Assembly (NCBI RefSeq): GCF_037975245.1
Contig: NC_092575.1
Location: forward strand, 12,263,001-12,327,000
Origin: Apostichopus japonicus
Taxonomy: Eukaryota > Echinodermata > Holothuroidea > Aspidochirotida > Stichopodidae
Direction: 5' to 3'
DNA length: 64,000 bases
Part shown: piece by piece, positions 562 to 59,103 of the stretch
Position numbering within the stretch: position 1 is the first letter of the stretch
Layout of the letters: every line of letters begins with the position of its first letter
Notes under the pieces: model-generated
What the model saw: only the letters and a program-made list of their open reading frames with translations
Database searches by the model: none
Told to the model about the DNA's origin: nothing
Program-made: the position numbers and the translations under genes

Positions 562-1883
562 TATATATGCTTTGAATATGCTTTGAATCTGACATTGTTA
601 TACAGAATAACCACTCTTTATAGGCAAGCCAAGCCGTAATCAAGAAATGAATGTGTAGCAAGTGGTATGACAGCTATATATATAAATATATAAATATATA
701 TATATATTAGTGTTTGCACGGGTTATCCGGGTACCCGGGTACCCGCCCGACGCGATACTACCCGGTTCCTAATTTATTACCCGAATCCTAAGCAAAGTGT
801 TATTTAAAAAAAAAAAAAAAAAAATTGGCAAACCGACGGTTAGGCAGATTTCCCATTGACTTAGTGTGGTGTTAGGCTGCAATGTGGTCGAAGATAACAG
901 CAATAACGAAGGGGTCCGCTCGACGCGAAACTACCCGGTTCCTTATTTATTACCCGAATCATACGCAAAGTGTGATCGTTTAAAAAAAAAATGCAAACCG
1001 ATGGTTAGGCTGATTTCCCATTGACTTAGTGTGTTGTTAGGCTACCCTGTGTTCGAATATAACAGCAATAACGAAAGCTTTCCATAAATATCTTATAACT
1101 GCGTCACAATTTCAGCTAATAAACAGATGGCTAGGCTAGACTACCCCCATTGACTTAGTGTGGTGTTAGGCAACCATGTGGTCGAACGTAACAGCAATAA
1201 CGAAAGTATTCCATGGATGTCTTATAACTGCGTCACAACTCCAGCAAATAAACAGATGGTTAGGCTTAGCTAGATTTCTCATTGACTTAGTGTGGTGTTA
1301 GGCTACCATGTGGAAGAAATTATTATTTATTCATTCGTTTATTTCAAAGAAGGAAAGGCTGACAAGGAATTTTAGGCGATGTTTATAGATTATTCACGGG
1401 ATAACTAAAAAATAGTAATCGCAAGTGGCTTTTTACTAATCGTTTATTCCAAGGGCGATCAAATTGCGAGAATCGCGCAATCTCGCGGCTAATGCGAACC
1501 CTGGGCCTGCATAATAGATAGTAGTAGATATTTATATGGTTTGATCCAATAGACGTGCACGAGCTAGCATAAGCAGCGGCGGCAGTGCGATGTTAGTAGT
1601 AATGCTAATTATAATTACATAATTAATTTATAAACAATTTTAATGAAGAAACAGAAGCAAAAATTATTGAGGGAGGTTTTATACCTTTTCTTACACCTGC
1701 GTATTTGAACATGAAAACATTGTCAGTAAAGAATGTAAAGCATTTATTACAGCATCCAATATGTAATTTCTTGAAAATCGTGATACACGAGGGTAAACAA
1801 ATTTTTCCGGGTACCCGGATACCCGACGGGTAACGGCCCTCGGGTACCCTGTTCCAGATTTTTGGACCCGGGTAAACACTAAT

Positions 1884-1914
<31 letters not shown>

Positions 1915-4900
1915 AAGCAAATAAGTAAAGAATAACACACCAGAAAAATTGCACTACACGACCGGTTTCGTCCATTTGGGACTCATCAGGCGAAGGTAGG
2001 AATCGAACCCGGGATCTTGTGTTACGAACCGAAGTCCGTACCACTCGACCACGGTGATTCTACTGGTGTGTTAATGCGTATAAATTGGCTTTGAATAACT
2101 GTCATTGAGGCCGTATTACCCAAGTGTTATGATTGTACAGAGTGCACCCCTGGTGCTTTGAATCTGACATTGTTATACAGAATAACCACTCTTTATAGGC
2201 AAGCCAAGCCGTAATCAAGAAATGAATGTGTAGCAAGTGGTATGACAGCTATATATATATATATATATATTCAAATGGTTTTGAGGTTATTGTTCATCCT
2301 TAATAATAAGGCTTGCATTCATATTGTCTCATTACTTCACATTATATTTGGCAACTGGTACAGGTAAGTTATCTTTAACATTTTGTGTGACAGGATAGGA
2401 GCATTTTTTTTTATAGGATAGGAGCATTTTGTGTGATAGGATAAGAACACTGTGTGTGATAGGATAGGTTAATTAAACTTAGAGCACCGTCCCAAAGCAG
2501 CTTACCTTTGTATAAGCCAAGTTATAGAACGCCACCCTAGCTTCTGACGGTTCCAGCATTTCAATGATGGCTGTCACACCGGCAGGAGGTAATAAAACCT
2601 TCCCCAGTTGTCCATGGGGCGTGAACAGTTCTCCGAGTTCATCTGGCTTGGTGCCAGCCGGTAGATTTTTGGCTATCATCACAGTCTTACTTCTTGGAGC
2701 AGAGGCCTGACCATGGACATAAACAGAGTCGGTATTTATTTATTACTTACGTGTACCATTAGTCTAGCAAGTTAGTGTATCAGAAGTGCTCATGACAATT
2801 ACATAAGCTTGCAAGTAAATCAAGACTTGTAGAGCTTGTTGCATCTAAATATGAAAAATATGCCATTATGAGATATTTACTGGTTCGTGAACTTTCTTAA
2901 AGCTATTGGATACCGTGGTAACGTAGAACGGTAAAGTATTCAGTATTGCAAACATTGTACATTTGGAAGCCCTTTTTTTGGCTACTTTGTTGAATAAGTA
3001 ATTACAGAAGACACAATATCTCAAAAATGTGTTAAAAAAAAGTGGATATTTATCAAATTCAGCATCGACAGATAACAAAGACAAGGGGTTGTCAATAGTG
3101 GGTCCAACAGGCCAAATCTGCCCGGGGCAAAATATTTCAGTTTGGCAGGCAAAAACATGCACAACACACTTTCATAACAAGATGTTACTTAGATCAGCCC
3201 TAATTGTTCCAAAGGGCATTCAAATGGGCAGTCAAAAACTGATCGGGCTAGTTACCATTTGCCTGCACCACTTAAGATGAGGACAAATAGGCTGTTCCCA
3301 CTAACGCGGGCTTGCTTCAAGCATGCATAGGTAGAGCTAAAATTAAAACGGCAGATAAGCCCTGCAATTTGAACCCGCGTTTCAACGAGTTAACTCCAGG
3401 CATAGCGGCATGATTGGAAAACCTTGGGAACCATCCAAACCAGGTTGGAAGGAATATATATCGCTATTTTGTACTGAACATATTCTCAGTATCACTTTAT
3501 AGACACTGTCCTTCTCTTCATAATAAAGGCATAGTTTTAAGGGGATTTTCAATTTGATCAGCATAGCATCCGACTAACTGTTGAAAAAAAAACTTATTTC
3601 AAATACCAGTTTAATAATTGCAAGTGTGGGCAAAGGATTAGGCATTTACTGTATTTGTATGACTATGTGTTCGGCAAAAATGTTCAACAAACGTTTCATA
3701 GTACAGACCGTGACAAAATCACGGAAAATCCACGCTCTTGCAGAGAATATAGTTGCACAATTGTAATAGATTATTCCATCAGAGAATACGAGTAGCGATC
3801 GACAGCTAGGCAGTGAGTGTTTTCGGGTTAGCCCCGTTCCCATGCAGAAAAAGAGTGGAGCAATGTGCCCTCCCCTCGATAGGTCGATCAAGGGTGAAGC
3901 AAGCACGTGTCGTGGGAACGGCCTTAAAGGCTTCAAAGCCAAACGGACTGCTTCGTTAAAAAAACCAAAACCGAATGAACTGGAATGTACATAATTATAT
4001 CCTATGATCCCTACTTACTTGACTGAATGAATCCAGGGCAACTCCATTGTCAACTAAAAACTGTCTGGTCTCTGCCACAATCTGGGTTTCTCCAAGGGCC
4101 ATCCTCACCCCTAGGCTTCCCTTGGCATCCTACAATCAAAATATACCACATAAACAAATAAAAAATATACAGAAACAAAAGCATACCAGAACAGTCGCTT
4201 CAACTGTTATAGACGTAACAAAGAACTATACTTGGCTACAACATGACTGGGGGAAAATGAGCTCAGTGAGATTGTACCTGTAACATATTACTTAGTAATG
4301 ATTTGACCTCATGTTGGAAAACTCACGTTTCATGCAAATATGTATCATTTTACTCTCCCTGATTCCTAATATTTCTATGTGAACATTCGCTGAAAAGTTG
4401 CTTCTTTGCAACATAAAGTGAAGTACTTTAAAAAATTTTCATCAAACCTGAAACTTCTTTTCATCAGCATTTGCCAGGGAGGGAATGCCTTGACCAGAAT
4501 GTCAAAATATGCATTGACCACAATTATATTGAAACTGCTTGTCATTTACAAGGCCAAGCTTCACACAGACTTACCATCATTTGAAAATATATCAACCATA
4601 TCAAAAGTTGCCAAAATATTGTAAGCTTGAAATGCCTCATATGAACCTTTTGATTTCACTGCATTTAGATATTTTTCAAAAAGAAGGAGCTAAACCACTG
4701 CTTTAATTTTTTTTTAGACATATGTAAGTATAAAACATTATCTACACAAGATGTATATTATTACAAGTTCTACATACCGGGTCCAATACAGCTTGTTTGG
4801 TCGTGTTGTACTTTGAGGCGAGTGCTTCTGCTACAGCATTGGAACCAATAAACAGTGTGTTCCAGTTATGAGAGCTGAAAAGAGGAAGTTAATCGAGAAA

Positions 4901-28913: not shown

Positions 28914-29914
28914 TTTGTCAGATCCACGAGCAAGTGCCGATGTTTAAAGCAATGCTCGATTGGACGGCATGAGAAGATTGCACAATAACATCAACCATCA
29001 ACAAACCAAAGTTATGGAAAGCCGAATGGTAAAACGGGTATTAAATTTGGCTGTTCCTCACATCACAGCTGTTGATCATACACCGCTCCCCCGGTCGCTC
29101 CTTTACTGGAGCCTGGACAGAGGAATATGACATTATAAATGATATATTGTGTTTCAGCATTACTATTGTTCATATTTTCTCCCAGGCTGCTAATGGTAGA
29201 AGGCCTACACACTGGGATAAAGATGGATGGTGCCAGAATGCCAGCTGCACTGGAGCCGTAATAGTATAGTATATATGGGCATGCATATGTGTGTCCACAA
29301 AAGTAAAACACCAATGGTCCACCTATGAAACAAACACAAATACATTACATTTAACTGTATTATCCTTTTCTTGATTTGACGTATTTACTTATGCGATACG
29401 GTATTTGTAGCAGTATGATGTGGGGGCCATATAACAATTATCTGTTTAGGTTTATTGAATTTCTTCAATACCAATAACGACAAGCCGACAAAATATATTA
29501 ATAAGGAGAAAGTCAATCCGCAAAAAAAAAAACACTTTTCTTTTACTTTATATGACAATGGGCATTCAACAAATCACTTATACATATATAAAAGTTTCAA
29601 ATAAACAATATTAAAACAAATTGAAAATAACTAGAAATTAAAGCGAACTTATATGTTACATAATATGCAACACATTCGCACAATTATTATTTTGGTATTT
29701 TCCTTCTGTTATTTTTTTCTCTTACAAGATTTCGGTGTTTAATTAAGACATTTATTTAATTTTATTTCATTGATAAACATTCGCATGAAATATTTTTTCA
29801 ACATGTATAAACATTAAAATATTTACAAACATTGACAATTAAAAAAACAAATAACGTGTTTACTAGTTGAGAAAAAAGACCTAATGAAAAAAAGTGGATA
29901 GGGACGTAAAAGGT
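28914..29914. other. Intergenic region upstream of RBM19
   Basis: Presumed to hold the RBM19 promoter and 5' UTR; no TATA or initiator can be assigned. Short open frames near 29,063-29,314 on both strands have no recognisable content. The remainder is very AT-rich. Confidence 0.4.
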
Positions 29915-30030
29915 TCCCCAGGGGAGGATCGAACTCCCGACCTTCGCATGGCTCAAACAGTGCGAGTCTTTATAACTCGTCGTGATACTGTTTATAAGTA
30001 CGACGCGCTAACCGACTGTGCTACTGGGGA
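29915..30030 (-). tRNA. tRNA-Ile (anticodon UAU) with 43-nt intron, copy 1
   Basis: Minus-strand cloverleaf: 7-bp acceptor TCCCCAG/CTGGGGA, D arm GCAC-AGTCGGTTA-GCGC (one mismatch), anticodon stem TCGTA/TGCGA, loop CTTATAA with anticodon UAU reading AUA, variable AGGTC, T arm GGGAG-TTCGATC-CTCCC. The mature tRNA would be 73 nt. The intron (29,950-29,992) lies after position 37, as in animal tRNA-Ile(UAU). It is long for this isoacceptor (about 20 nt in human) and contains TTATAA, which can pair with the anticodon. A TTTT terminator follows on the minus strand. Confidence 0.93.
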
Positions 30031-30841
30031 CGGACATTTAACAAATGGTCCACATAGCTTTAATTCACAATAGACTTGTCTCTGTGACACGAAAACATTG
30101 TAAGCTACTTAAATTTAAGTACCGGTATAAATACCGGTAATTGTTTACATCGAGGTTTCTTACTTTCTTCTTTATTTACCGCGCAAATGTTCGATGCTAT
30201 TATTGATAGTTAACAATGCAGGTATGCACGACTTAAGGTTCTGCAAAGTAAGGAAAACAACGTCAAACTATTTGTGAGAAAAATATGTGTGTCTGGTTCA
30301 CGAAATGTGTATGTAATAATTAATGTATAGCCATACTTCGCGTTTATTTGACGACTTAAAAAATCTATAGAGATATAGATATGAATTCGATCAGTTATAA
30401 AGGCTTGATGTGAGGAATACCGGTGGCGTGCACACGGGACTTCATTGGGGGGGGGGGTTGGGGTGGGGGTGAGAGAATTAATTGTAATTTTCCCAGACTG
30501 AATTTGCTAGGAAGCTGAACTTTTATAGAAGGGCCAAAGGCAAATGAAGGGTGTATTCCATTGTGTACGCATTGAACCCGATCGATAAGAAGATGGGGGG
30601 GGGGGGGGGAGGTTGCGGTCCGCCACCAGAAATAATTAAGATTGTTGACTACGACAGTTCGTTATGAGGAATAGATGTAGAATTGTTAGAAATATTAAGA
30701 TTTAGAAGTTAGGTCTTTATAAGTACTTTTTGCGTAACTTATTCGGAGGAATACTCTATATGGGTTGGTAAAAATGTCTTTCCAAAGAGCAAAAAGAAAA
30801 TGTCATTCCAAAGAGCAAAAAAGAAAAAGAAAAAAAAAGGT
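30031..30841. other. Spacer between the two tRNA-Ile genes
   Basis: No gene seen. Contains G-homopolymer runs (about 30,448-30,472 and 30,595-30,612). Only a short A-rich stretch resembles the flank of the other copy, so the duplicated unit is little longer than the tRNA itself. Confidence 0.5.
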
Positions 30842-30957
30842 TCCCCAGGGGAGGATCGAACTCCCGACCTTCGCATGACTCAAACAGTGCGAGTCTTTAT
30901 AACTCGTCGAGGTACTGTTTATAAGTACGACGCGCTAACCGACTGTGCTACTGGGGA
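30842..30957 (-). tRNA. tRNA-Ile (anticodon UAU) with 43-nt intron, copy 2
   Basis: Identical mature sequence to copy 1; the few differences all fall within the intron (30,877-30,919). T8 terminator directly downstream on the minus strand. Identical exons with a diverged intron argue that both copies are functional or recently duplicated. Confidence 0.93.
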
Positions 30958-46367: not shown

Positions 46368-47312
46368 TTACTGCTCATCGGACAGAGATCGTATGATGTG
46401 CATGATAACCATGGTAACTGTGATGATGGTAGCTCCAAAAGTGATGACAATGTCAAAACTGGCACGAAATATCGCCAATCGGATTACATAAGTTAGTACT
46501 GTTGAGATCGTTGAAGAAATCGCTACCGTCTTTACGTCCTCTGAGCCCAAAGCTATAGCATGCACTAATCCTTGTAACAAACAGGTGAACCCAAATATAC
46601 TTAGCAATAACCATGCTTTCATTGATGATGGTGTCGTCCAACTATCGAAAAAGAATCATAATAGCAAGCATATCGGAACGCCTCCGATCCCTTGAAAAAT
46701 CATGAGAAGCATAAGATTCAATGTTCCTTTGTTAGACAGTTTTTTCACAAACAGTGACCGTATGGACACAAAGAACCCAGAGAGCAACGCTATAAAAGAA
46801 CCGTAATTCTGAGTACTCTCTTCGGTAATAACAGACTTATTTCCGAACAAAAACTCTGGTTTGCAAATCAAAATGATACCGATGACATCAGACAACAAGA
46901 TGACGTAATCTAATTTATTAACTCTTTCGGAGAGAAAACAGTGTCCCAACAAAGCCGTAAAGATCACGATAGCTCCTAATTCTAGGGCTGTACTGTCGCC
47001 AACTTGTAGAAAGTACAAAGTAGCTGACGTAGAAACCCACGCGAGACAACCCGTGACAGAACATACTAGATAGAACAAAGTATCATAGCAGGTATACCGC
47101 TGGGTATCGTTCCAGGAACTGTAGCATATAATACAACAAAGGTGAACTAAGCAACGTATAAATGTGACCTGAATTGCACTAAATGAATTTAATAACTCTT
47201 TCGCCATACTAAGTTGTGCGGCTAGTATGAAACCATAAGCTATGGCACAGAACTGTCCTCGCTTTCCCGCCGTTTTAATGCATCCGTTAGTTCCGAAACG
47301 ATCTTCCGACAT
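46368..47312 (-). pseudogene. SLC35G1-like transporter copy 1, one premature stop
   Basis: Intronless, 315 codons, same frame throughout as the intact copies at 50,180 and 58,159. A single TCA-to-TGA change (46,656-46,658) stops it after about 218 residues, inside the second EamA half, at the L-L-L-S-F-F-F segment. Start ATG at 47,310-47,312 (MSEDRFGTNGC). Apart from the stop there are only scattered substitutions (e.g. EESTQN at the inter-domain loop), so inactivation is recent, or this is a polymorphism. Confidence 0.85.
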
Positions 47313-48819
47313 GTTGAAAGTAAAAATTGGAAGATACTTTTTCGAGTATATCTTTAAAAAGAATTCCTTAAAGTCGTCCACAGACTACAACTTTCTGTTA
47401 TCAGTGATCGTTTTCCTGTACCTTTCTTCTCTAGACTTAGAAATAACTCCACTTTGAGTTGTACACTGGTTCCGACTACCTCTCATCTGATGAAATGTGT
47501 TAATCGCATGAATTTTCAACCTATCTTAATGTTTGCATGTTTCATATATATTTATTGGTTGAGTCGTGTTAATTCGAGTTGTTGTTTGCAGCTTTGTGTA
47601 CAAACATTACTACCCGCATAGTAAGACATTTTTACCAGCCGATTCACACATAGATTACAGTAAGGTTTACAGTAAGAACTGAAGATAATTGTTATTCCAA
47701 CAAATCCCAAACAACTGGATTTGTTGGATTTTTACACATATCCTGTTCTTACTGTAATAGTACATGTCACCGAATAGTACATCCTAATAGTACATGTCAC
47801 CGAATGATAGCACGATCCAGTTTTTACTGTGGTACACAAGTTTAAGATTTACAGTTAGTAACTGTGTTCTCTATGTGCAGTTGGTGTTTTCACACATAAC
47901 CGACCTGGCGTGTCTCATTTAAATTGATAAAGTAAAGTGATAATTAATGTGCGGCTGCTGATTGGAGCGTATATAGCCCTATAATTCGATGTATACCTTT
48001 ACCTTTCTATTGTTTAAGTAAGCCATTGTTGATTACCATAGGAAACGCTTACAAAAGTTGTTTTCTTTCCAAAGAGTGATGTAAGTAAAATACTACCTGA
48101 TATTCTGTCACAAATATAAAAATATTAGACAATTGATGGTATTTATTGCATTGATTCATTTAGGTTATTTGAAAAAGATGACTTCACTTGTATGTTTTGC
48201 CATACATGCACCCACACACACACGCAAACACGTCCACTCATCCGCCTGCATTACTACATAGGTTACGATTATCATCGAAACCAAAAGCAAACGTTTCTGG
48301 AAACAGATCCCACTAGACGACCCTGGAAACACCTCAATATGGAAGCTAATGGAACAGTTAATATAAGCTACAGTGTAATTAACGTTTTATAGTAATTATT
48401 GAACCATATAAAGCTGTTAAGAAAAGGATAACTGAAAATCAAATTTAATCAATGAACCTCCTTAAAACAAGCTATTTTTATTACTTCTCGCTGTTTCCCT
48501 CAATTTGAAGGATTTTAGGATCCACCATAGCCGTTTACAAGTCAGAGATAAACATCTCGAAGCCTTTTTTAAAATCTGGAATAATTTCGATAAGCTTCAT
48601 TATCTTACCTCAAATAAACACTTTTGTGGTTTACTCATTTTTGTGGCAAGTTTAAAATTGTTAACCGAACTACAAAAAGTTATGGGATGCCATTTTAAAA
48701 ACAGCATGTACAGACTAAAAATAAATAACTAAAATAAAATATTAAAATCAACAAAGGCTTAAGATATCCAAAAGACAGTTCTTCATCAAAGGGGCACATT
48801 GTACTTGCCATTAGGGCAC

Positions 48820-50179: not shown

Positions 50180-51127
50180 TTACTGCTCTTCGGGCAGAGA
50201 TCGTATGATGTGCATAATAACCATGGTGACTGTGATGATGGTAGCTCCAAATGTGATGACAATGTCAAAACTGGCACGAAATATCGCCAATTGGATTACA
50301 TAAGTTAGTACTGTTGAGATCGTTGAAGAAATCGCCACCGTCTTTACGTCCTCTGAGCCCAAAGCTATAGCCTGCACTAATCCTTGTAACAAACAGGTGA
50401 ACCCAAATGTACTTAGCAATAACCATGCTTTCATTGATGATGGTGTCGTCCAACTATCGAAAAAGAATGATAATAGCAAGCATATCGGAACGCCTCCGAT
50501 CCCTTGAAAAAACATGAGAAGCATAAGATTCAATGTTCCTTTGTTAGACAATTTTTTCACAAACAGTGACCATATGGACACAAAGAACCCAGCGAGCAAC
50601 GCTATTAAAGAACCGTAAATAGTCTGCGTACTCTCTTCGGTAATAACAGACTTATTTCCGAACAAAAACTCTGGTTTGCAAATCAAAATGATACCGATGA
50701 CATCAGCCAACAAAATGACGTAATCTAATTTATTTACTCTTTCGGAGAGAAAACAGTGTCCCAACAAAGCCGTAAAGATCACGGTGGCTCCTAATTCTAG
50801 GGCTGTACTGTCGCCAACTTGTAGATAGTACAAAGTAGCTGACGTAGAAACCCACGAGAGACAACCTGTGACAGAACTTACAAGATAGAACAAAGTATCA
50901 TAGCCGGTATACCGCTGGGTATCGTTCCAGGAACTGTAGCATATAATACAACAAAGGTGGACTAAGCAACGTATACATGTGATCTGAATTGCACTAAATG
51001 AATTTAATAACTCTTTCGCCATACCAAGTTGTGCGGCTAGTATGAAACCATAAGCTATGGCACAGCACTGTCCTCGCTTTCCCGCCGTTTTAATGCATCC
51101 GTTGGTTCCGAAACGATCTTCCGACAT
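50180..51127 (-). CDS. SLC35G1-like EamA/DMT transporter, copy 2
   Basis: Intronless ORF, 315 residues, predicted ten-helix membrane protein of the drug/metabolite transporter superfamily with two EamA repeats (about residues 18-150 and 175-305). Visible family marks: DSTALELGATVIFTALLGH, the FLSERVNKLDYV turn and ICKPEFLFG at the end of the first repeat, as in SLC35G1/TMEM20. The substrate is unknown. It starts at MSEDRFGTNG (ATG 51,125-51,127) and ends RSLPEEQ. It has one extra codon (STQTIYG) in the inter-repeat loop relative to copies 1 and 3. Lack of introns and tandem copies suggest an intron-poor ancestor or a retrocopy that was then duplicated. Confidence 0.88.
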   Translation of the reverse strand: MSEDRFGTNGCIKTAGKRGQCCAIAYGFILAAQLGMAKELLNSFSAIQITCIRCLVHLCCIICYSSWNDTQRYTGYDTLFYLVSSVTGCLSWVSTSATLYYLQVGDSTALELGATVIFTALLGHCFLSERVNKLDYVILLADVIGIILICKPEFLFGNKSVITEESTQTIYGSLIALLAGFFVSIWSLFVKKLSNKGTLNLMLLMFFQGIGGVPICLLLSFFFDSWTTPSSMKAWLLLSTFGFTCLLQGLVQAIALGSEDVKTVAISSTISTVLTYVIQLAIFRASFDIVITFGATIITVTMVIMHIIRSLPEEQ

Positions 51128-51759: not shown

Positions 51760-51781
51760 AAGAACAGTGAAAAAACTTCCA

Positions 51782-51853
51782 GCATCCACCGGGATTCGAA
51801 CCCGGGCCTCCCGCTTTGTACGCGGACACACTAACCAACTAGGCCATGGACGC
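51782..51853 (-). tRNA. tRNA-like sequence or SINE head, anticodon loop GTACAAA
   Basis: Minus strand: 7-bp acceptor GCGTCCA/TGGATGC (one G-U), anticodon stem TCCGC/GCGGG, T arm CCGGG-TTCGAAT-CCCGG, consensus A box (TGGCCTAGTTGG) and B box (GGTTCGAATCC), then TTTTTT. The D stem is poor, and the loop gives anticodon ACA (Cys-type UGU), which is not used in animals. More likely a tRNA pseudogene or Pol III SINE head than a working tRNA. Confidence 0.5.
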
Positions 51854-58158: not shown

Positions 58159-59103
58159 TTACTGCTCTTCGGGCAGAGATCGTATGATGTGCATAATAAC
58201 CATGGTGACTGTGATGATGGTAGCTCCAAATGTGATGACAATGTCAAAACTGGCACGAAATATCGCCAATTGGATTACATAAGTTAGCACTGTTGAGATC
58301 GTTGAAGAAATCGCCACCGTCTTTACGTCCTCTGAGCCCAAAGCTATAGCCTGCACTAATCCTTGTAACAAACAGGTGAACCCAAATATACTTAGCAATA
58401 ACCATGCTTTCATTGATGATGGTGTCGTCCAACTATCGAAAAAGAATGATAATAGCAAGCATATCGGAACGCCTCCGATCCCTTGGAAAAACATGAGAAG
58501 CATCAGATTCAATGTTCCTTTGTTAGACAGTTTTTTCACAAACAGTGACCATATGGACACAAAGAACCCAGCGAGCAACGCTATTAAAGTACCGTAAATC
58601 TGAGTACTCTCTTCGGTAATAACAGACTTATTTCCGAACAAAAACTCTGGTTTGCAAATCAAAATGATACCGATGACATCAGCCAACAAAATGACGTAAT
58701 CTAATTTATTTACTCTTTCGGAGAGAAAACAGTGTCCCAACAAAGCCGTAAAGATCACGGTAGCTCCTAATTCTAGGGCTGTACTGTCGCCAACTTGTAG
58801 AAAGTACAAAGTAGCTGACGTAGAAACCCACGCGAGACAACCTGTGACAGAACTTACAAGATAGAACAAAGTATCATAGCCGGTATACCGCTGGGTATCG
58901 TTCCACGAACTGTAGCATATAATACAACAAAGGTGAACTAAGCAACGTATACATGTGATCTGAATTGCACTAAATGAATTTAATAACTCTTTCGCCACAC
59001 CAAGTTGTGCGGCTAGTATGAAACCATAAGCTATGGCACAGCACTGTCCTCGCTTTCCCGCCATTTTAATGCATCCGTTAGTTCCGAAACGATCTTCCGA
59101 CAT
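58159..59103 (-). CDS. SLC35G1-like EamA/DMT transporter, copy 3
   Basis: Intronless, 314 residues, near-identical to copy 2: same start (MSEDRFGTNG, ATG 59,101-59,103), same two EamA halves, same TALELGATVIFTALL and CKPEFLFG marks and RSLPEEQ end. Differences are few (CIKMAGKRG for CIKTAGKRG, QLGVAKE, STQIYGTLIALL). The open frame and mostly conservative changes suggest it is functional. The flank shared with copies 1 and 2 extends about 190 bases downstream and more than 350 bases upstream, so promoters were duplicated with the gene. Confidence 0.88.
   Translation of the reverse strand: MSEDRFGTNGCIKMAGKRGQCCAIAYGFILAAQLGVAKELLNSFSAIQITCIRCLVHLCCIICYSSWNDTQRYTGYDTLFYLVSSVTGCLAWVSTSATLYFLQVGDSTALELGATVIFTALLGHCFLSERVNKLDYVILLADVIGIILICKPEFLFGNKSVITEESTQIYGTLIALLAGFFVSIWSLFVKKLSNKGTLNLMLLMFFQGIGGVPICLLLSFFFDSWTTPSSMKAWLLLSIFGFTCLLQGLVQAIALGSEDVKTVAISSTISTVLTYVIQLAIFRASFDIVITFGATIITVTMVIMHIIRSLPEEQ

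Follow-up and report, generated by a model that had tools for sequence, protein, structure and literature searches.

A candidate sea cucumber retrozyme family with a predicted Pol III promoter joined to its hammerhead ribozyme

Animal retrozymes are defined in a paper that, in its available text, also proposes Penelope-like elements (PLEs) as their helpers (PMC7229834). Two questions about these elements are open, one on the source of their transcripts and one on the agent that returns them to DNA. The Schistosoma hammerhead elements Sm-alpha and Sj-alpha were reportedly the subject of Ferbeyre 1998 and Laha 2000. In the accessible part of PMC2770079, 2,342 of 2,368 tRNA-Gln-TTG-like hits are classed as SINEs similar to Sm-alpha, and a passage of PMC12029980 suggests a Pol II promoter for the plant retrozyme NbRZ1.

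Here we compare with these systems a sequence found in a 64-kb stretch of sea cucumber DNA (the window). It is probably a copy of a metazoan-type retrozyme, that is, a non-autonomous non-LTR element of ~340 nt with a type I hammerhead and its own tRNA-like (type 2) Pol III promoter.

The window copy and its ribozyme

The A box, B box, hammerhead core and TTTTT that an initial annotation had placed on the minus strand are present in the sequence; all of them lie in the interval 2073-1933, as do the type I hammerhead match and the 11-bp inverted repeat. The features are listed below, with the boxes, repeat arms, ribozyme parts and T run read directly from the letters.

1916..2248, minus strand: full retrozyme unit, positions 1-335 of the reference unit of locus L008, 92% identical (blastn, L008 unit against L001; coordinates converted from L001 1313-1645)
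2063..2073, minus strand: left arm of the inverted repeat, TAACACACCAG, pairing with 1943-1933 (perfect, 11 bp)
2041..2051, minus strand: A box, TGGTCGAGTGG
1999..2009, minus strand: B box, GGTTCGATTCC
1954..1995, minus strand: type I hammerhead (Rfam, RF00163), stem III being the palindrome ACCGGU
1989-1983, minus strand: hammerhead core CUGAUGA
1982-1970, minus strand: stem II, GUCC/GGAC with a CAAAU loop
1969-1966, minus strand: GAAA
1966-1961, minus strand: ACCGGU
1960/1959, minus strand: predicted cleavage site after GUC (sequence and RF00163 alignment)
1948-1944, minus strand: T5 run TTTTT, possible Pol III terminator
1933..1943, minus strand: right arm of the inverted repeat, CTGGTGTGTTA
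1882..1914, no strand: (TA)n tract adjoining the unit's 3′ end, of the kind that usually flanks family members
580..673, minus strand: 5′ piece of a second unit (unit positions 1-95, 88%), in the same orientation as the full unit

Judged by its sequence, the window copy is a slightly worn member of the family, with one full unit and then, after an interruption of ~1.2 kb, a piece of a second unit (673-580). The interruption (window ~700-1890) has inverted ends of the form (TA)n-TTAGTGTTT...CGGGT, with arms at 675-723 and 1866-1914 (90%), and resembles a further mobile element that entered the TA tract. Inside the window unit alone there is no frame of 100 aa or more, and the RT and GIY-YIG of a Penelope-like element are absent from it; two frames, 105 and 117 aa long, share sequence with its 3′ part but extend 230-290 nt past it. 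Elsewhere in the window are three similar single-frame SLC35G1-like transporter frames of 241, 315 and 314 aa (46656-47381, 50180-51127 and 58159-59103, minus strand).

The proposed hammerhead holds up against the covariance model: Hammerhead_1 (RF00163) matches at 1995-1954 with 34.6 bits, above the Rfam cut-off of 34 (E-value 7.1e-5 over the 64-kb window and 6.7e-7 over 601 bases). The conserved core, the three stems and the strand ends in stem I of a type I hammerhead are all present. At L008 the Hammerhead_HH9 model scores 40.0 bits, under its cut-off of 52, and UACCU is common to the ribozyme of the unit and this model. The UAC internal loop beside outer stem I is one that we take to resemble the tertiary-contact loop of the Schistosoma ribozyme.

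Stem I, described at first as supporting the ribozyme, is borne out by the majority sequence of 30 copies, which folds with stems I and II (the program pairs part of the core otherwise), but not by the window copy. There the majority GUGAAG and GUGG are replaced by GUGUAG and GUGC; CUUCGC/GUGUAG contains a U.U mismatch, an outer pair is missing (C.C), and stem I is absent from the minimum-energy fold. For L008, both as a 120-nt RNA and as a 341-nt circle, predicted pair probabilities are 0.82-0.99 in stem I and 0.98-1.0 in stem II. The inverted repeat forms a stem that closes the promoter-ribozyme domain in the predicted circular fold of the L008 monomer.

UUCC, with which the B box ends, is complementary to the GGAA 3′ of the cleavage site, and the four-base end of the B box can in this way act as the predicted 5′ strand of outer stem I throughout the family. 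The ribozyme does stand in place of a tRNA 3′ half, as had been suggested, though the B box end would also form a stem I strand. The result is an unusual layout, in which a consensus Pol III promoter lies directly before, and partly inside, a hammerhead, with activity that is predicted. If the overlap is real, every circle, whatever its start, would re-insert with promoter and ribozyme fused.

Covariation across 89 closely related copies gives no support for any stem. The inverted repeat has 0 compensatory cells, 108 broken ones and 55 kept by one-sided change, so its stem is no more than a prediction. Compensatory cells are likewise 0 in inner stem I (9 broken), outer stem I (19 broken) and stem II (8 broken), with 1 in stem III (4 broken); the three stems of the head have 1, 0 and 1 compensatory cells and 26, 17 and 20 broken ones. 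At L031 stem III reads ACGCGU in place of ACCGGU, which keeps the palindrome and fits the single compensatory cell of that stem.

The family, its unit and its head

The genome (671.6 Mb, 35 contigs) is a sea cucumber's: under the echinoderm code its COX1 shares 97% identity with an Aspidochirotida record, and for a window protein the sole relative with a name, among 4 hits, comes from Holothuria leucospilota (47%). Searched with the 127-nt stretch, it gave at least 43 matches (40 of 974 candidates scored). A hammerhead-family search with the head not in the query gave at least 59 matches at E ≤ 0.001, at least 50 of them over the cut-off (74 of 66,307 candidates scored). Thirty loci from this search were inspected by eye and all belong to the same retrozyme family, five of them being 5′-truncated within or beyond the head (L032, L034, L036, L037 and L058). 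An exact pattern of B box, stem I and core occurs at 188 places against 0 in the control, in agreement with the earlier expectation of other genomic copies that keep boxes and ribozyme, and a pattern of the core with the 3′ strand of stem I occurs at 318 places, again against 0. Viral contigs scanned with two exact ribozyme patterns gave no match. A loose hammerhead pattern has 389 genome matches against 11 in the reversed control; among the matches listed, judged by eye, seven are of another minimal ribozyme type, four belong to a ~98-bp satellite and nearly all others to the retrozyme family.

The second minimal hammerhead type (G000:C7:4570730-4570760, minus strand, and six other listed places) reads CTGAAGAGGATTCTGCTAGGATCGAAACGTC, with variants, and has a palindromic ACGT; presumably it resembles Penelope-like ribozymes. 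The tandem satellite, at G000:C4:18021195-18021519 (plus strand), has a period of ~98-100 nt, and four of its units fit the hammerhead pattern (e.g. CTGAAGAGCGTAACAGGTCGAAACATGTC). At G000:C1 12105673-12119882, matches to the retrozyme body recur at 12109.0, 12114.3 and 12119.6 kb, ~5.3 kb apart, which suggests a segmental duplication.

Tandem copies had also been predicted and were found. L063 has two identical 341-nt monomers and, joined to its 5′ end, an inverted 5′ piece, with a (TA)n tract on either side of the whole, and at L007/L008 a second copy lies 341 nt downstream. Measured between successive cleavage sites, six tandem monomers in five arrays are 336-345 nt long: 336 and 341 at L006, 341 at L008 (again in L007), 341 at L009, 345 at L013 and 338 nt at L020. 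The L008 unit matches all of the first 30 loci. With a body-only query (unit 1-173; 40 of 711 candidates scored), all 30 loci inspected continue into the head and 28 extend as far as the ribozyme region, one of these (L072) ending within it; head and ribozyme are therefore integral to the unit.

The head occupies unit positions ~186-252 of 336, in the 3′ half, and full-length insertions begin ~185 nt before it. We take TGGTCGAGTGG to be a full match to the A box consensus TRGYNNARNNG and GGTTCGATTCC to fit the B box consensus, both boxes matching the type-2 Pol III consensus, and the A-box region is presumably Ser/Leu-like. The gap between the boxes is 31 nt in the window copy and 31-34 nt in 28 of 30 loci (those with an exact A box), which were themselves picked by similarity to the window copy; this is within the range of 30-40 bp given for tRNA-derived SINEs in the available text of PMC7279448. 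An A+B pair at tRNA-like spacing arose by chance in 1 of 36,000 base-shuffled 165-nt stretches.

ARAGORN found no tRNA gene at the window head and none within the unit in 29 loci. The tRNA-family models gave no match at E ≤ 1 in the window stretch, nor at E ≤ 10 in L008, where the sole match of the tRNA clan search at E ≤ 10 was an 11-nt tmRNA scrap of 7.1 bits. The reading of the head as a tRNA gene is rejected since neither ARAGORN nor these models recognise it, and with a unit of ~340 nt the self-contained 120-nt tRNA-ribozyme gene of the initial annotation had to be abandoned.

Other tRNA-like sequences occur in the window and near family loci elsewhere. Sequences like tRNA-Cys(ACA) or tRNA-Tyr(ATA), probably tRNA-like SINEs, lie at 51781-51853 of the window and at L019 2517-2591, L030 438-512 and 811-885, L018 1221-1294 and L023 1952-2025; exceptionally high Cys and Tyr copies are given for another sea cucumber in the accessible part of PMC8580430. 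On the minus strand of the window, two tRNA-family matches of equal score (29914-30030 and 30841-30957) have the anticodon region UAU and an insert of ~44 nt and are 927 nt apart.

Across 83 copies the A box has 3.3% substitution and the B box 2.9%; the stretch separating them has 6.8% and the leader 7.4%. The contrast is about two-fold and no more than suggestive, since similarity to regions containing the boxes and the ribozyme guided the choice of copies. For stem I, stem II and the core the values are 0.014-0.025, and for the T run 0.044. Among 27 distinct body-selected copies, 23 have an exact A box, 21 an exact B box, 18 both at the right spacing and 18 a strict core. Among 28 distinct ribozyme-selected copies the corresponding counts are 19 for the A box, 14 for the B box and only 8 for the strict pair, so many copies are decayed. 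A run of four or more T is present in 22 of the 27 and 23 of the 28.

These counts bear on the alternative that the family is an ordinary retrozyme made by read-through from neighbouring promoters, with the boxes an inert fossil of a captured SINE head. We regard this as rather unlikely. Metazoan retrozymes seem promoterless and may depend on read-through, according to the open text of PMC7761336; the T run would block Pol III templates, and the boxes are broken in many copies. Against this, the head is present in all 30 body-selected loci, the remainder of the head has changed about twice as much as the boxes (with selection bias in the copies), and the consensus boxes keep their 31-34-nt gap in the 28 of 30 loci, chosen as these were by similarity to the window copy.

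Insertions and a possible life cycle

A TA-rich flank accompanies most of the 74 distinct insertions, being present on the right in 57, on the left in 36, on either side in 64 and on both in 29; any target-site duplication, which in metazoan retrozymes exceeds 4 bp where there is one, is masked by such flanks. The 5′ ends are scattered. Most 3′ ends cluster around positions ~331-336 or ~25-37 of the unit, immediately ahead of TATA, with a few elsewhere (e.g. L047, L058, L060, L066 and L072). The usual 3′ ends are ~30 or ~70 nt beyond the T run, and in L066 and L072 the last unit stops before it. An inverted piece is found in 19 of the 74 insertions and two or more unit 3′ ends in 22; none of the 52 that have only one such end could by itself yield a monomer. 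Every insertion has one or more matched segments that cross the cleavage site. A circle or an uncut multimer would give this result, although it is expected for L001-L060, loci selected with queries that contain the ribozyme.

Identity between tandem units is 98-100% in two arrays but only 90-93% in the other three (L006, L013 and L086), so not all arrays are fresh. The comparison took only pairs with starts 300-380 nt apart and left out arrays with a truncated first unit; its 10 pairs represent five arrays, L009/L065 and L063/L064 being overlapping loci.

This anatomy is what target-primed reverse transcription at (TA)n would leave, with more than one round of the circle and sometimes both strands primed. 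It is not the only way to such a pattern, as tandem and inverted copies could also stem from later rearrangement rather than solely from twin priming or circular templates.

The suggestion of a ribozyme-carrying SINE family came close: there is a dispersed family with boxes and ribozyme, but the promoter is not at the 5′ end of the inserted element as in a SINE. A tRNA-derived SINE is an improbable reading; in it, Pol III would stop at the T run, the ribozyme would trim the transcript, and the 120-nt RNA would be functional, with the rest of the unit as baggage. Promoter, ribozyme and T run do all lie within 120 nt, and T4 or more is kept in 22 of 27 copies, but at least one matched segment passes the T run in each of the 74 insertions, so the 120-nt RNA is not the mobile form.

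Very improbable, too, is that the unit belongs to a Penelope-like element, or arose straight from one, and is no retrozyme in its own right. The inverted arrangement is also known of PLEs, and the genome holds the second, minimal type of ribozyme with the ending GAAACGTC, which by eye accounts for 7 of the places listed. Tandem copies and a weak stem III are features that PLEs share, in the available text of PMC7229834 and PMC7761336. However, the 340-nt unit has no coding sequence, the second ribozyme type differs in sequence, and the 3 kb around its L095 copy have no stop-free frame longer than 101 aa.

A MITE-like DNA element bounded by the inverted repeat can be rejected with near certainty: the 11-bp arms are perfect in the window copy, as first described, but rather than bracketing a ~120-nt unit they are internal to one of ~340 nt, and the flanks show family sequence running past them.

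The boldest reading, less likely than not, is of a self-promoting element that target-primes on (TA)n from circular RNA. In it the B box that recruits Pol III would double as a stem I strand, and the outcome at the T run would matter: a short trimmed RNA in one case, and with read-through a dimer from which a circle is made. For the retrozyme that we favour, the following cycle is proposed. Pol III would start ahead of the A box. With a leaky T run, some transcripts of tandem copies would continue through a unit and terminate at a T run further on. As the anatomy suggests, the two hammerheads of such a dimer transcript could excise exactly one ~341-nt monomer with 5′-OH and cyclic-phosphate ends, perhaps aided by pairing between the palindromic stem III sequences. 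A host RtcB-type ligase may circularise the monomer, by analogy with what the available text of PMC7229834 describes. The UAUAU stretch of the circle might then anneal to genomic (TA)n that has been nicked, where a reverse transcriptase of foreign origin could copy the circle, sometimes for more than one round, leaving 5′-truncated or tandem insertions; priming from both DNA strands would leave inverted pieces. Since the T run precedes the putative priming site by ~30 nt, a transcript ending there cannot be the template, and an efficient T run would rule out Pol III as its source. We prefer a model of read-through from a dimer.

Comparison with known systems

The family shares much with the metazoan non-LTR retrozymes of coral, mussel and axolotl, which in the available text of PMC7229834 have a type I hammerhead and 150-450-bp tandem repeats and lack an LTR; the sea cucumber monomers are 336-345 nt. 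Elements of that class are also expressed as linear and circular RNA, and they have no primer binding site or polypurine tract, features for which, as for an LTR, a ~340-nt unit has hardly any space. Metazoan retrozymes seem promoterless in the accessible part of PMC7761336, whereas the sea cucumber family has A and B boxes before and inside the ribozyme. It differs from the metazoan retrozymes described also in its TA-rich flank (64 of 74 insertions).

Plant LTR retrozymes give hammerhead-driven monomers and circles, as proposed here, but have a type III ribozyme and LTRs (PMC12029980, in its open text). Penelope-like elements with minimal hammerheads likewise have a weak stem III and a tandem arrangement, but are autonomous and coding, unlike the sea cucumber unit (accessible parts of PMC6155905 and PMC7761336).

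The SINE-like Sm-alpha and Sj-alpha elements of Schistosoma, of ~335 bp, likewise carry a hammerhead and a tRNA-like sequence (PMC2770079 and PMC8490949, in their available text). Because Sm-alpha already joins the two, the combination is not new in principle. Sm-alpha belongs to another phylum and is tRNA-Gln-like, whereas the sea cucumber head fails the tRNA model, and the likeness, as far as these texts go, covers co-occurrence and not where the ribozyme stands with respect to the B box. Together with Sm-alpha, the family would be a second, distant case of a tRNA-like sequence with a hammerhead, suggesting repeated capture. A search of open-licence papers, with most subscription journals outside its scope, found no description of the B box-hammerhead layout.

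On transcription, the family offers a testable answer in an internal Pol III promoter fused to the ribozyme. On insertion, it offers a signature: a TA-rich target, clustered 3′ starts, inverted 5′ pieces and identical tandem monomers. The layout looks like a variant of known ribozyme-bearing mobile repeats, one that could explain how they are switched on.
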